Below, piece by piece: positions 28,299 to 40,093 of a stretch of 64,000 nucleotides of DNA. The position numbers and the translations under genes were made by a program. This DNA is from Burkholderiales bacterium. Its GTDB lineage: Bacteria; Pseudomonadota; Gammaproteobacteria; Burkholderiales; UBA6910. The notes beneath the pieces are model-generated. The model had not been told where the DNA came from. It made no database searches and saw only the letters and a program-made list of their open reading frames with translations. The stretch covers positions 439,501 through 503,500 of the forward strand of contig BPKG01000001.1 of the NCBI GenBank assembly GCA_026005015.1, written 5' to 3'. How positions within the stretch are numbered: position 1 is the first letter of the stretch; every line of letters begins with the position of its first letter.

Positions 28299-32446
<4,148 letters not shown>

Positions 32447-32558
32447 CTATGATAGCTCAAAACGCCTGGGGACAACAGCTTGCGAGCGCGCGTCTCCTGC
32501 GGACTGGCGCATCCTTGCAGGGACTTTCGGCCGCCGAGATCCCGGGAACGGCGGCCTT

Positions 32559-34957
<2,399 letters not shown>

Positions 34958-34984
34958 TTCCCGGCCTCGTCGCGCACTGAATTG

Positions 34985-35006
34985 TAATCGCAACAAAAAG
35001 CGATTA
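34985..35006. promoter_or_regulatory. Inverted repeat between ppsA and ppsR
   Basis: TAATCGC and GCGATTA are perfect 7-base arms around an 8-base A-rich spacer. They lie 28 bases upstream of the ppsA start and 58 upstream of ppsR. The site could be an operator for a regulator of the divergent pair or a hairpin in the ppsA leader. No matching regulator is identified. Confidence 0.35.
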
Positions 35007-35063
35007 TTTTAACCGGTCACCACGGTTCCCGCAGCCGGACCGTTCCTTTTTATAGGTCGTTCC

Positions 35064-35883
35064 ATGAGGCGCACGGCGTTCTTCGTCTCCGACCGCACCG
35101 GCATCACCGCCGAGATGCTGGGCCACAGCCTGCTCACCCAGTTCGAGACGGTCAAGTTCAACGAGCGCACTCTGCCCTACGTGGACACGGTCGAAAAGGC
35201 CCGGTCGGCGGTGGAGCAGATCAACCGAGGCCGCCGAGCAGGACGGTGCCCGCCCCTTGGTCTTCAGCACCCTGGTAAACCCCGAGATCAACCGCATCGT
35301 GGCCCAGGCCAACGCCTTGGTGCTGGACTGCATGGACGTGTTCATCACCCCCATGGAGCAAGAGCTGGGGGTGAAGTCGAGCCACACGGTGGGCCGCTCC
35401 CACAGCGCCCGGGACGTGGTGGACTACCATCGCCGGATCGAAGCGGTGAATTTCGCCCTGGCCCACGACGACGGGGTGTCCACCCGGGACCTGCACCAGG
35501 CGGACGTGGTGTTGATCGGGGTCTCGCGCAGCGGCAAGACGCCCACCACCCTCTACCTGGCGCTGCAGTTCGGCGTCTGGGCGGCCAACTACCCGTTGAC
35601 CCCCGAGGACTTCGGTTCCATGCGCCTGCCGGCGCCCCTCGCCTCTTACCGCAGCAAGCTCTTCGGTCTCACCATCAATCCGGAGCGGCTGCACCTGATT
35701 CGCAGCGAGCGGCGCCCGGGCAGCAAGTACGCCGATCTCGCCAACTGCGAATTCGAGGTGCGGGAAGCGGAGGCCCTCATGCGCCAGGAAGGGGTACCCT
35801 ACATCGACGCCACGTCCATGTCGGTGGAGGAGATGGCCACCACCATCCTGCACCAGGCCAATCTCACCCGCCATATCTACTAA
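35064..35883 (+). pseudogene. ppsR: Phosphoenolpyruvate synthase regulatory protein (PSRP, DUF299), frameshifted
   Basis: PpsR is an ADP-dependent kinase and phosphorylase that switches PpsA off and on. The N-terminus [20 protein letters not shown] is typical. The frame breaks after EQINR; removing one base near 35229-35230 restores [20 protein letters not shown] and everything after. The P-loop [15 protein letters not shown] and the C-terminal [11 protein letters not shown] follow. The length is 3n+1, and the corrected protein is about 272 residues. It is divergent from its target ppsA, the usual arrangement. The break is probably a sequence error. Confidence 0.9.
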
Positions 35884-36679
35884 GGCGCTCAACCGCCTGC
35901 AGCTGCCGCACCCGCTCGTACAGGCACACGGCCGCCGCGGCCGCGGCGTTGAGGGATTCCATGCCTCCGGGCATGGGGAGCCGGACCACCGCGTGGGCCG
36001 TCTCGCGTAAGCGCCGCGAGACCCCCGTCCCTTCGTTGCCGATGACGAAGGCGGTGGGACCGGTGAGGTCCAGATCGAAAAGGCTTAAGCGGGCGTCGGC
36101 GCTGGTGGCGATCACCTGGCCGGGAAACGAGCGTGCCGCCTCCAGCAAATCCGCCCGCTCCCGTATGGGCAGCAGGAAATGGGCGCCCATGGCGGCCCGC
36201 AACACCTTGAGGGACCAAGGATCGGCGCAACCGGGCGACAGCGCCGCCAAGTCCACGCCCGCCGCCGCGGCGGTGCGGAAGATGGAGCCCACGTTGCCCG
36301 GGTCCTGAAGGTCTTCCAGCAGGAGCAGGAAGCCGGGGGGATCCCGCCGCAGGCGCGGTCGGGGAGGCGCTGCGACGGCGAGCACGCCGGGGGGCGCCGC
36401 CAGATCGGAGAGCTGGGCGCACAGGGCGTCGGAGAGGAAGAGGATGCGATCGGCCGGCACCGCCCGCAAGCACGCGGCCATTTCGGGCGCCTGCGCCTTC
36501 GATTCGGCGATCGCCACCAGGTCGGGAAGCGCTCCCCGGGCGAGCAGCTCCTGCACCAGGCGCACGCCCTCCAGCACGATGCGCTCCGTTTCCCGGCGCT
36601 GGCGGCCGGAGTCGATGAGCTTCGCCAGGCGCTTGAAGGCGGGATTATCCCTGGAGCGGACGACCCGGCTTGGCGGCAT
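35864..36679 (-). CDS. TrmH/SpoU family RNA 2'-O-methyltransferase
   Basis: 271 residues. An N-terminal substrate-binding domain ([20 protein letters not shown]) precedes the SPOUT methyltransferase domain. The SPOUT motifs are [17 protein letters not shown] (motif 1), [12 protein letters not shown] (motif 2) and [18 protein letters not shown] (motif 3), forming the trefoil knot that binds AdoMet. This is the TsnR/YsgA-like group acting on rRNA, or possibly tRNA; the target nucleotide is not known. It starts one base after the senA stop codon (TGA then ATG) and overlaps the convergent ppsR end by 20 bases. Confidence 0.88.
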
Positions 36680-37987
36680 TCAGTCCATCGCGCAGGTACG
36701 AAAGCCCGCGAACACGTCCCGGCGATCCGGCGTGTAGAAGTTACGCCACAGGTTGTGGACCAGCCGGGCGCGGGTGGCGAAGCAGCCGCCCCGCAGCACC
36801 TTGTGATCGCCGAACCAGGGCTCGGAATATTCCTTGTAGGGGTCACGCACGAAACCGGGATAAGGCAGGAACCAATCGGCGGTCCACTCCCACACATTGC
36901 CCAGCATCTGCCGGCAGCCTATGGGGTTGTCGCCCGCGGGAAAGGCTCCCACGTCCGCCGGCTCCCTGTACCACCCGTCCAGACAAGCGCGGCCCGCATC
37001 GGGAGGCTCGCCGCCCCATGGATATCGGCGCTTTTCGTGGGGAAACCTCGCTCCCTTGCCCCACGCCGCTGCCATTTCCCACTCCGCTTCGGTGGGCAGC
37101 CGCCGCCCGGCCCAGCGGCAATAGGCCTCCGCTTCGTACCAGTTCACGTGCAGCATCGCCACCTCCGGGCGCAGGGGCCGCCAGCGGGCAAAGCGCCGCT
37201 CGAGCCACTGGCCATCCCGTTTCTCCCAGTACACCGGATGTTCCGCCCGGACCGACTCGCGCCAGCGCCAGCCCGCCTCGGACCACAATTCCCGGCGCCG
37301 GTAGCCCCCCTCCTCGACGAAGGCGAGGAACTCCCCGCTGGTCACTGCCGTGCGGCTGATGCGAAAAGGCCGCAACCGCACGGCATGGGCCCACTTTTCG
37401 TTGTCGAAGGCGAAGGGCTGCTGTGGAAAGGCACCAAGGTGGAACACGCCGCCGGGAACTTCCACGTCGCCCTGGACGGGAGCGGTTTGCACCGGCGGGG
37501 GCGGCGCCCCCACCGGGGGCGCCTCGTAGCCCAGGGTCTGGCGCGTGTAGAAAAAAGCCTCCCCGTGCATGTCCTCGTGGTAGAGGGCGAGGCGCACGAA
37601 ATAGGGGTCCGCCTGACCGCGGGCGAGGCGTTCCAGCACTGCCTCCAGCACCCGCTCCAGGTACTCCAGGGTTTTCCGCCAGGTGAGGAGGGGCAAGCCC
37701 CAGCGCCGGTCATGAGCGACGGCCATGGAATCGTACAGGGCGTCCGCCTGGGGCAGGATGGAGGGCGCCAGCCCCTCGCCCCGCCGCCGCAGGCACCAGC
37801 GCTCCTGGAACCAGGCCACGTGCCCCAGCTCCCAGCGGGGAGGGTTCACGATGGGAAGCTGGGGCCCCAGCTCCCGTGGGCCCTCCAGGTCGGCGGTGAG
37901 CGCCAGGGTCCGGGCCCGGGCGTCCTGAAGCGCGGCACTGAGAGCGCCTGCTTCCTCTGCTATAGTCATGGGCTGCGGGAGATTCAT
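36680..37987 (-). CDS. senA: Selenoneine synthase SenA-like (EgtB/OvoA family)
   Basis: 435 residues. It resembles EgtB, the iron enzyme that joins hercynine to a sulfur donor in ergothioneine synthesis. The closest functional type by gene context is SenA, which uses a selenosugar. The N-terminal DinB-like domain has iron-ligand candidates in WELGHVAWFQE and the HxxxH pair in LYHEDMHGEA. The C-terminal FGE-sulfatase domain has LPTEAEWEMAAAWG, NVWEWTADWF and RNFYTPDRRDVFAGFRTCA. The start at 37987 gives MNLPQPMTIAEEAG; the ATG at 37969 is also possible. It is divergent from senB with about 30 bases between, and joins the RNA methyltransferase gene downstream. No hercynine methyltransferase egtD is in view. 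Confidence 0.8.
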   Translation of the reverse strand: MNLPQPMTIAEEAGALSAALQDARARTLALTADLEGPRELGPQLPIVNPPRWELGHVAWFQERWCLRRRGEGLAPSILPQADALYDSMAVAHDRRWGLPLLTWRKTLEYLERVLEAVLERLARGQADPYFVRLALYHEDMHGEAFFYTRQTLGYEAPPVGAPPPPVQTAPVQGDVEVPGGVFHLGAFPQQPFAFDNEKWAHAVRLRPFRISRTAVTSGEFLAFVEEGGYRRRELWSEAGWRWRESVRAEHPVYWEKRDGQWLERRFARWRPLRPEVAMLHVNWYEAEAYCRWAGRRLPTEAEWEMAAAWGKGARFPHEKRRYPWGGEPPDAGRACLDGWYREPADVGAFPAGDNPIGCRQMLGNVWEWTADWFLPYPGFVRDPYKEYSEPWFGDHKVLRGGCFATRARLVHNLWRNFYTPDRRDVFAGFRTCAMD

Positions 37988-38017
37988 GGGTCCAAGTTTA
38001 ATCCGCCCCTGTTGCCC

Positions 38018-38965
38018 TTGAGAATCGCCATCGTCACTCCCTCGGCGGCTACCCGCCGCACCGGCAACCGCCGGACGGCGGCGCGCTGGCGCCGCTTCCT
38101 GGGGGAAGCGGGCCATGACGTCCGGGTTTACGGCCGCTGGACGGGCGAACCCGCGGAGCTCATGCTGGCCTTGCACGCACGGAAAAGCCATCCCGCGATC
38201 CGCGCCTTCCGCGAGGCCTTTCCCCGCCGCCCCCTGGTGCTGGCCTTGACCGGCACCGACCTCTATCGGGACATCCGCACCGATTCCGAGGCCCAGGAAT
38301 CCCTCCATCTCGCCACCCGCTTGGTAGTGCTACAGGAGCGGGGGGCCGACGAGCTGGAGCCGGTCCTCCGGCCCAAAGTGCGGGTGGTCTATCAATCGGC
38401 CCCGCCCCTCGCGGTGCGCCGGCGCCTGCCCGGCCGGGCGGTATGCGTCGTCGGGCACCTGCGGGAGGAAAAGGATCCCTTCCGCGCTGCCCAGGCCCTG
38501 GCCCATATCCCCTCCGCCGTGCCGATCCACGTGATGCAACTAGGCGCCGCCCTGGCGCCCCAATTCGCCCGGGAGGCCCAGGCCCTCATGGCCCGGGAAC
38601 CCCGCTACCGCTGGCTCGGGGAGCTGCCCCACGGGCAGGCGCGGCGAACGCTGGCCGCCTCCTGGCTCATGGTGGTGAGCTCCCTCATGGAAGGGGGCGC
38701 CAACGTGATCGCCGAAGCCGTGATGTCGGGGGTGCCGGTCATCGCCTCTCGCATTCCCGGCAACGTGGGCATGCTGGGGGAGGATTACCCCGGCTATTTT
38801 CCGGTGGGCGACGAGCGGGCCCTCGCTCAAGCGCTCCTGCGCGCCGACCGGGATCCCGGCTACTACGAGGCCCTGCGCGCCGCCTGCGCGGCACGCCGGC
38901 CTCTGTTCCACCCGCAACGGGAGAAAGAAGCCCTTCTCGCCGCCCTGGATGAGCTTAGGAGTTGA
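38018..38965 (+). CDS. senB: Selenosugar synthase SenB-like glycosyltransferase
   Basis: 315 residues, a GT-B fold glycosyltransferase. Members beside SenA couple selenophosphate to a UDP-sugar to give a selenosugar, the selenium donor for SenA. The N-terminus RIAIVTPSAATRRTGNRRTA and the C-terminal SSLMEGGANVIAEAVMSGVP with EDYPGYFPVGD match this family. The N-terminal GNRRTAARW is distinctive. No ATG lies in frame at the start: TTG at 38018 is chosen, with TTG at 38012 and CTG at 38009 as alternatives, and no clear ribosome-binding site. No senC/selD lies beside it, so selenophosphate must come from elsewhere. Confidence 0.8.
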   Translation: MRIAIVTPSAATRRTGNRRTAARWRRFLGEAGHDVRVYGRWTGEPAELMLALHARKSHPAIRAFREAFPRRPLVLALTGTDLYRDIRTDSEAQESLHLATRLVVLQERGADELEPVLRPKVRVVYQSAPPLAVRRRLPGRAVCVVGHLREEKDPFRAAQALAHIPSAVPIHVMQLGAALAPQFAREAQALMAREPRYRWLGELPHGQARRTLAASWLMVVSSLMEGGANVIAEAVMSGVPVIASRIPGNVGMLGEDYPGYFPVGDERALAQALLRADRDPGYYEALRAACAARRPLFHPQREKEALLAALDELRS

Positions 38966-39000: not shown

Positions 39001-39456
39001 TCAACCCATGGCATAGGCCAGGGGGCCCAGGGTCGCCACGGCCACGTTGATCAACCCCAGGGCCAGGTTGATCCCCACCAGGACGCGGATCTGGGACAGG
39101 GCCGTCCCGGCCGCCTGCCAGTCTCCGGCGGCGCAGCCCCGTTTGAGGGCGGTGAAGGGGAGAAAATAGACGTAGAAGAAAATGACCGCCATCACGATGC
39201 CGATCACCATCATGGCGAGGATATAACCCGGCAGCGCCCCGATCTCTCCCACCATGTGGAAGCCGGAGAGGAGGATCAGAATCACCGCCGCCCACACCCA
39301 GAGGAAGAAGCGGCGGAACACCGCCGCCCAGAGCTTGAGCCGGGCCGGCGGCTCCAGGGTCTCCACAGCCGCCGGGCGCAGCGCCATGTAGGCGAAAAAC
39401 ATGCCCCCGATCCATACCACTGCCGACAGGATGTGCAGGAAGATGGCGACTCGCAT
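39001..39456 (-). CDS. CopD family integral membrane protein
   Basis: 151 residues with four predicted membrane segments. The N-terminus MRVAIFLHILSAVVWIGGMF carries the His/Trp-Gly pattern of the CopD and YqaA-like families, thought to bind heme or copper. Later segments are LWVWAAVILILLSGFHMVG and GYILAMMVIGIVMAVIFF. It lies 28 bases downstream of rnhB and converges on senB with 35 bases between. Whether it transports copper is not known. Confidence 0.7.
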   Translation of the reverse strand: MRVAIFLHILSAVVWIGGMFFAYMALRPAAVETLEPPARLKLWAAVFRRFFLWVWAAVILILLSGFHMVGEIGALPGYILAMMVIGIVMAVIFFYVYFLPFTALKRGCAAGDWQAAGTALSQIRVLVGINLALGLINVAVATLGPLAYAMG

Positions 39457-39484: not shown

Positions 39485-40093
39485 TCAATCGCAATCCGCG
39501 GGCTCCCCGGCCGGCGCCGCCTCCAGCAGGGCCCGCACGGGCGCGAAGCTTCTCCGGTGCACCGGGCTCACCCCGTGGCGGCCGAGGGCCGCCAAGTGCT
39601 CTTGCGTCGGATAGCCCTTGTGCCGGTCGAAGCCGTAGAGGGGATAAAGGGCGTCGAGCCGCACCATTTCCGCATCCCGGGCCGTCTTGGCCAGGATCGA
39701 GGCGGCGGCGATCTCGGGAACGCGATCGTCGCCTCCGATGATCGCCTCCACCGCCAGCTCGACGGGGGGGCAGTGGCAGCCGTCCACCAGCACCCGGTCG
39801 GGGCGCACGCCCAAGGCCGCGACCGCCCGCGCCATGGCCAGCAGGCTCGCCTGGAGGATGTTAAGCCGATCGATTTCCTCCACCTCGGCGCGTCCGAGGG
39901 CCCAGGCCGCGGCCGAGCGGCGGATGGCCTCGGCCAGCGCCGCCCGCCGCCCGGGGGCGAGCTTTTTCGAGTCCCGCAGGCCGGCGATGGGGCGGTGCGG
40001 GTCGAGCACCACGCAGGCGGCATAGACGGGTCCCGCCAGGGGACCCCGGCCCGCTTCGTCCACGCCCGCGATCACCGGCAGAATTCGCTTCAT
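39485..40093 (-). CDS. rnhB: Ribonuclease HII
   Basis: 202 residues. RNase HII removes ribonucleotides from DNA and cuts RNA-DNA hybrids. The motif [20 protein letters not shown] carries the first metal-binding acidic residues. DSKKL and [10 protein letters not shown] follow, with the last acidic residue in [14 protein letters not shown]. The ATG at 40093 overlaps the lpxB stop as ATGA. In many betaproteobacteria rnhB is followed directly by the RNA methyltransferase; here the CopD and sen genes lie between. Confidence 0.95.

Follow-up and report, generated by a model that had tools for sequence, protein, structure and literature searches.

A divergent senA/senB pair of the selenoneine type, kept within a housekeeping neighbourhood of a Burkholderiales bacterium

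The window, a stretch of 64,000 nucleotides from a Burkholderiales genome, contains a divergent pair of genes surrounded by housekeeping genes. The gene senA, predicted to encode a selenoneine synthase of the long form (435 aa), occupies positions 36680..37987 on the minus strand, with an ATG start at 37987 and a TGA stop at 36680-36682, and was assigned on the basis of the NF041186 and TIGR04373 profiles, SenA-type residues and trees. On the plus strand, senB (38012..38965), encoding a putative selenosugar synthase, begins with a TTG at 38012 or 38018 and ends with the TGA at 38963-38965. The gap between the chosen starts (37988..38011) spans 24 bases, close to the approximately 30 bases proposed in the earlier note for a divergent SenA/SenB-type pair, and is partly conserved in G001, a relative of the same genus. 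With a gap of 0 to senA, a gene for a SpoU-family RNA 2'-O-methyltransferase (35864..36679, minus strand; Pfam SpoU_methylase, 123.7 bits) follows on the same strand, its ATG at 36677-36679 standing directly after the senA TGA; the protein passed no NCBIfam cut-off, the best score being that for RlmB (100.1 vs 160.15). On the far side of the methyltransferase lies ppsR (Kinase-PPPase; 35064..35883, plus strand), which is above the Pfam cut-off on its N-terminal part and contains a frame change at approximately 35230. Past senB, the minus strand carries a gene for a small CopD-like membrane protein (39001..39456; Pfam CopD, 41.9 bits, cut-off 32.1), which adjoins in several, though not all, of the syntenic loci, and the syntenic rnhB, encoding ribonuclease HII (39485..40093; NF000596, 276.6 bits, cut-off 251). 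Both the flanking by rnhB and ppsR and the abutting of senA and the methyltransferase gene were found as previously claimed.

A promoter-like site for senB was located inside the start of senA (37938..37966, plus strand), where CTGAGA and TATAGT are spaced by 17 bases, with a TG before the latter. The site is a consensus match only, found once against a mean of 0.0 in 50 shuffles, and its TGCTATAGTC is present in G001 too. In the neighbouring genes pyrG, ppsA and ppsR (30762-35883), four frame changes were seen relative to the intact ORFs of G001, at approximately 30911 (pyrG), 34363 and 34530 (ppsA) and 35230 (ppsR), while a fifth frame change in the alignment, at approximately 34964, falls upstream of the likely ppsA start. 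As these are central metabolic genes, the changes look like assembly errors and are probably residual indels.

SenA scored 512.8 bits against the NCBI SenA model NF041186 (cut-off 420) and 99.6 bits against TIGR04373, a signature related to EgtB (cut-off 71). It contains DinB_2 and FGE-sulfatase domains, each above its Pfam cut-off. The histidines H57, H138 and H142, which we take to be the iron ligands, are all kept, in agreement with the designation of the protein as a SenA-type EgtB homologue. At the substrate-pocket columns it has Y388, N417 and F418, and at further compared columns P378, P391 and W392. Among 101 SenA-like rows, the first of these columns is tyrosine in every row and the second asparagine in 100, while the third is phenylalanine in 92 and tyrosine in 9. 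SenA is 82% identical to the SenA of G001, 50.7% identical to that of Variovorax paradoxus over 361 columns, and 45.4% identical over 414 columns to PDB entry 8ux5, described in its title as the M401Y/Q430N/A431F variant of Halomonas utahensis OvsA, a hercynine-binding variant with selenoneine-biosynthetic activity. The V. paradoxus protein is without a counterpart of residues ~310-363, the long-form stretch. In the predicted structure of SenA (mean pLDDT 74.4), values below 50 were obtained for residues 361-408 and 418-429, which include Y388 and F418 and have N417 at their edge; because of this low pLDDT around Y388 and F418, the model was used for overall fold ranking only.

SenB scored 424 bits against TIGR04348 (cut-off 300). 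The equivalents of N20, T23, K158, E231 and E239, which PMC10891094 shows to matter in V. paradoxus SenB, are all identical here, and K158 and E231 are conserved in all 88 SenB rows. H58, T83 and R155 are kept as well, whereas R61 is replaced by K. Where V. paradoxus SenB has the motif EGGAHV, the protein described here has EGGANV, as do 61 of 89 aligned sequences with the reference counted. Both the family score and the presence of the Variovorax catalytic residues speak against an unrelated glycosyltransferase.

Co-occurrence and layout were assessed in 60 genomes, comprising the organism's own and 59 relatives. SenA was above cut-off in 19 and SenB in 22 of these, with both in 18, and in 16 of the 18, own genome included, the two genes are neighbouring and divergent; divergence is the norm for senA/senB among these relatives. 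In the other two genomes (G005 and G057) the genes are on different contigs. By Fisher tests, which ignore relatedness, an EgtD match was associated with SenA (19/19 SenA genomes vs 7/41 others, p 3e-10; above cut-off in 18 of the 19, the EgtD of G033 being cut by a contig end), as was SenB above cut-off (18/19 vs 4/41, p 1e-10), with SelD found in 17/19 vs 27/41 (p 0.07). The SelD frames of G008, G015, G049 and G057 each hold one in-frame TGA, perhaps for selenocysteine.

A genome contig scan provided a wider set of loci, from which the best 80 of at least 590 were picked by likeness to the query, with a bias towards long forms. Among these best 80, SenB adjoins in 69 (30 divergent, 39 on the same strand) and was not seen in 11, the flanking sequence being short in two of these. 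Within 2.5 kb, EgtD is encoded in 19 loci and SelD in 14. The 80 loci include Acidobacteria, Actinobacteria, NC10, Planctomycetes, Chloroflexi and Halomonas, and in MAGs of Acidobacteria, Armatimonadetes and Planctomycetes (L083, L085, L095, L097 and L109) a long SenA, SenB and EgtD are encoded consecutively on one strand. The relative G036 (loci L161 and L162) encodes a long SenA and EgtD, yet neither SenB nor SelD was matched in its genome. Along with the proteins of four named loci in which a long SenA and EgtD occur with no SenB seen nearby (L077, L080, L093 and L106), this SenA might use a sulfur donor. Another relative, G006, carries an OvsA-like second copy (L147; G006:C6:41494-42771), and its contig C21 groups a short SenA, SenB, SelD and EgtD.

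Two trees were computed, a quick one of 119 rows and a careful one of 50 of those 119, both accompanied by a program warning about long branches joining at the EgtB rows. In the quick tree, SenA pairs with its same-genus relative (100), with 14 EgtB-type rows far off, and falls in a weakly supported group of 26 rows (SH-aLRT 88). A divergent senB is present in 25 of these rows, the contig of the remaining one (L165) ending inside senB. The careful tree does not recover this group with support; in it the EgtB rows are kept apart (99/98) and a starred branch (98/94) divides SenA, other long forms and OvsA from V. paradoxus SenA and the short forms. Forcing OvsA outside a clade of SenA and V. paradoxus SenA gave a tree that was 8.9 lnL better than this one (p-AU 0.708). 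A grouping of SenA with EgtB or OvoA, raised in the earlier note as a possibility to be checked, was not found: SenA is apart from the EgtB-type rows in both trees, and its score against the OvoA model TIGR04344 (137.9 bits vs 400) is far below the cut-off.

These data must be weighed against the reading of SenA as an OvsA-type selenoxide synthase, which would place selenium onto histidine and lead to ovoselenol or another 5-selenohistidine. OvsA is the top PDB sequence match of SenA (334 bits vs 290 for V. paradoxus SenA, whose match is split because that protein is without the stretch matching residues ~310-363), it ranks above the short V. paradoxus protein in structural comparison (Z 26.4 vs 23.0), it stands among the long forms on SenA's side of the 98/94 branch, and a single clade of SenA and OvsA was not rejected (p-AU 0.328), so that both placements of OvsA are compatible with the tree tests. 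The fold ranking leaves the function unsettled, however, since EgtB (26.8, the highest), OvsA and V. paradoxus SenA all come out on top, and so does the NCBI SenA model taken alone, because the OvsA-like L147 also passes its cut-off (427.2 bits vs 420). TIGR04373, in contrast, is passed by SenA and failed by L147 (59.7 bits, cut-off 71), and the encoding of EgtD in the genome likewise argues against the OvsA reading. The pocket is the most telling: SenA has the hercynine-type residues Y/N/F and not the histidine-type M/Q/A of OvsA, while the natural L147 combines M/Q/A with D/L/Q in place of P378, P391 and W392. Y388, N417 and F418 amount to the same three changes as those in the hercynine-binding variant 8ux5, as named in its entry title, the columns being mapped with a 20-residue offset between the aligned chain count and the title numbering; at the three mapped columns, 8u41 departs from 8ux5 and has M, Q and A. 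Halomonas utahensis OvsA, the ovoselenol enzyme, shares its fold and long form with SenA but differs in this pocket, which is the clearest evidence for hercynine over histidine and, as judged from the residues, disfavours the OvsA reading. The suggestion in the earlier note that the pair makes a different product has in OvsA a serious candidate, but with the Y/N/F triad arguing against it we regard it as very unlikely.

Still less probable is that SenA is an EgtB variant making ergothioneine, with SenB doing something unrelated. SenA scored 341 bits against the EgtB model TIGR03440, just under the cut-off of 360, and a long SenA with EgtD but no adjoining SenB does occur in the few loci mentioned above. 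EgtB, the ergothioneine sulfoxide synthase, shares the fold and the three histidines, but its pocket residues, its place in the tree and the SenB partner set it apart: each of the 101 SenA-like rows has H93 and M141 where EgtB has R88 and Q138 (chain count), the 14 EgtB-type rows are separated from SenA by a long branch with an SH-aLRT of 100, and SenB adjoins SenA in most of the 80 named loci. The least credible reading is that of a nonfunctional relic, for which the four frame changes in pyrG, ppsA and ppsR could be cited. Against it, the senA and senB reading frames are open throughout, SenA is 82% identical to its same-genus counterpart, and SenA and SenB both keep the checked residues.

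The remaining genes needed for selenoneine were sought in the whole genome, an assembly of 3.38 Mb in 7 contigs with a completeness of 95.31, in which the pair lies at ~C1:476183-478465. It had been pointed out that neither selD nor egtD stands beside the pair, and both were located elsewhere, above their cut-offs: SelD at C1:355242-356171 (440.1 bits, cut-off 125), ~120 kb from the pair on the same contig, and EgtD at C1:1361153-1362046 (384.4 bits vs 290.9), ~883 kb away. SenB is present as a single copy, besides a weak glycosyltransferase match, and a second SenA/EgtB/OvoA-like sequence was not found in the genome at E 0.001, so that no EgtB was found competing for the hercynine of EgtD. 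The selD gene is divergent from mnmH, encoding tRNA 2-selenouridine synthase (513.7 bits, cut-off 266), and SelA had no match in the genome. Given this position of selD and the missing SelA match, selenophosphate is probably shared between tRNA 2-selenouridine and selenoneine.

From what was directly observed (the genes with their family scores, the residues for catalysis and substrate choice, co-occurrence and synteny), we are highly confident that the pair is a selenoneine (sen) locus, the four pathway enzymes being encoded at three places in the genome. The reactions are modelled on the Variovorax chemistry (PMC9814287 and PMC10891094); PMC10702425, PMC13188914 and PMC11448449 were also consulted. 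SelD would supply selenophosphate, which SenB would join with a UDP-sugar to form a selenosugar, while EgtD would trimethylate histidine to hercynine. SenA, as an iron enzyme, would then couple hercynine to the selenosugar's selenium, and the selenoxide from this step would break down and be reduced, making selenoneine the most probable product. Compared with the V. paradoxus sen cluster (SenA 8ryz/8k5i, SenB 8jjn/8fbx, and SenC), SenA and SenB are above the family cut-offs, the SenB catalytic residues are alike, and a SelD/SenC-type enzyme and EgtD are also encoded in the genome. The differences are that no senC stands at the pair, that SelD is found by mnmH and that SenA is of the long form. 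The three-gene cluster with senC beside senA and senB, the published layout, is not present here, with selD ~120 kb off, but this layout is not required by the chemistry.

The arrangement of senA followed by the same methyltransferase gene recurs in 23 loci, own included, of which 15 are among the 80 named loci and 8 among the 60 genomes (G000, the organism's own, and G001, G002, G003, G019, G029, G039 and G049). rnhB is encoded past senB in 19 of these loci, and the remaining four (L069, L122, L128 and L165) start within or just past senB. The methyltransferase start is placed -19 to +10 bases from where the senA stop codon ends in 21 of the 23 loci, with L160 (101) and L098 (36) as exceptions; the starts were extrapolated from the organism's own protein to the nearest in-frame codon, and single values may be off. 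The methyltransferase itself was matched in 58 of the 60 genomes (own included; partial in G033 and G036), compared with SenA above cut-off in 19. In G014 and G008, both with sen genes elsewhere, it comes directly after rnhB and after rnhB and a CopD-like gene, respectively. At the other sen-less sites examined, other genes lie between rnhB and the methyltransferase, so that these sites argue neither way on insertion. The arrangement in G014 and G008, together with the presence of the methyltransferase in 58 of 60 genomes, is read as insertion into an existing operon: the pair looks to have been inserted into a housekeeping operon and afterwards inherited with it. Of the idea that senA is co-expressed with RNA modification, the tight spacing stood up and is conserved. 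That senA and the RNA methyltransferase are functionally linked is not supported and was rejected, as the latter is so widely present and also occupies the sen-less sites of G014 and G008.

A few relatives retain senB at this site with no senA there. In G017 and G057 (L196 and L199), senB is divergent beside the methyltransferase gene with no senA between, and in G031 and G052 (L197 and L198) the two genes are ~1.0-1.2 kb apart. G017, G031 and G052 have SelD but, in their genomes, neither a SenA above cut-off nor an EgtD match, whereas G057 has a SenA on another contig. The checked SenB residues are kept in all four, save small changes in the motif surrounding E231. These senB-only sites may reflect decay of the locus or another use of the selenosugar. 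We think it rather unlikely, if less so than the rival readings of SenA above, that SenB and not SenA is the constant part of the betaproteobacterial locus, its selenosugar feeding a second selenium product, perhaps also in the present organism. In a further locus (L200; G046:C1:180579-182482), SenB directly precedes SelD, in a genome with no SenA above cut-off and no EgtD match.

Among the papers listed in literature searches, titles and abstract openings gave no description of the synteny or of the senB-only relatives, from which no priority is implied. For annotation, caution is advised, since the NCBI SenA model alone fails to separate SenA from OvsA-like proteins, while the three pocket residues do. 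The pair comprises ordinary, well-preserved selenoneine genes, with the rest of the pathway elsewhere in the genome, and offers a clean case of such genes being retained in a housekeeping neighbourhood across many relatives. The senB-only relatives, in turn, make alternative uses of the selenosugar a testable question.
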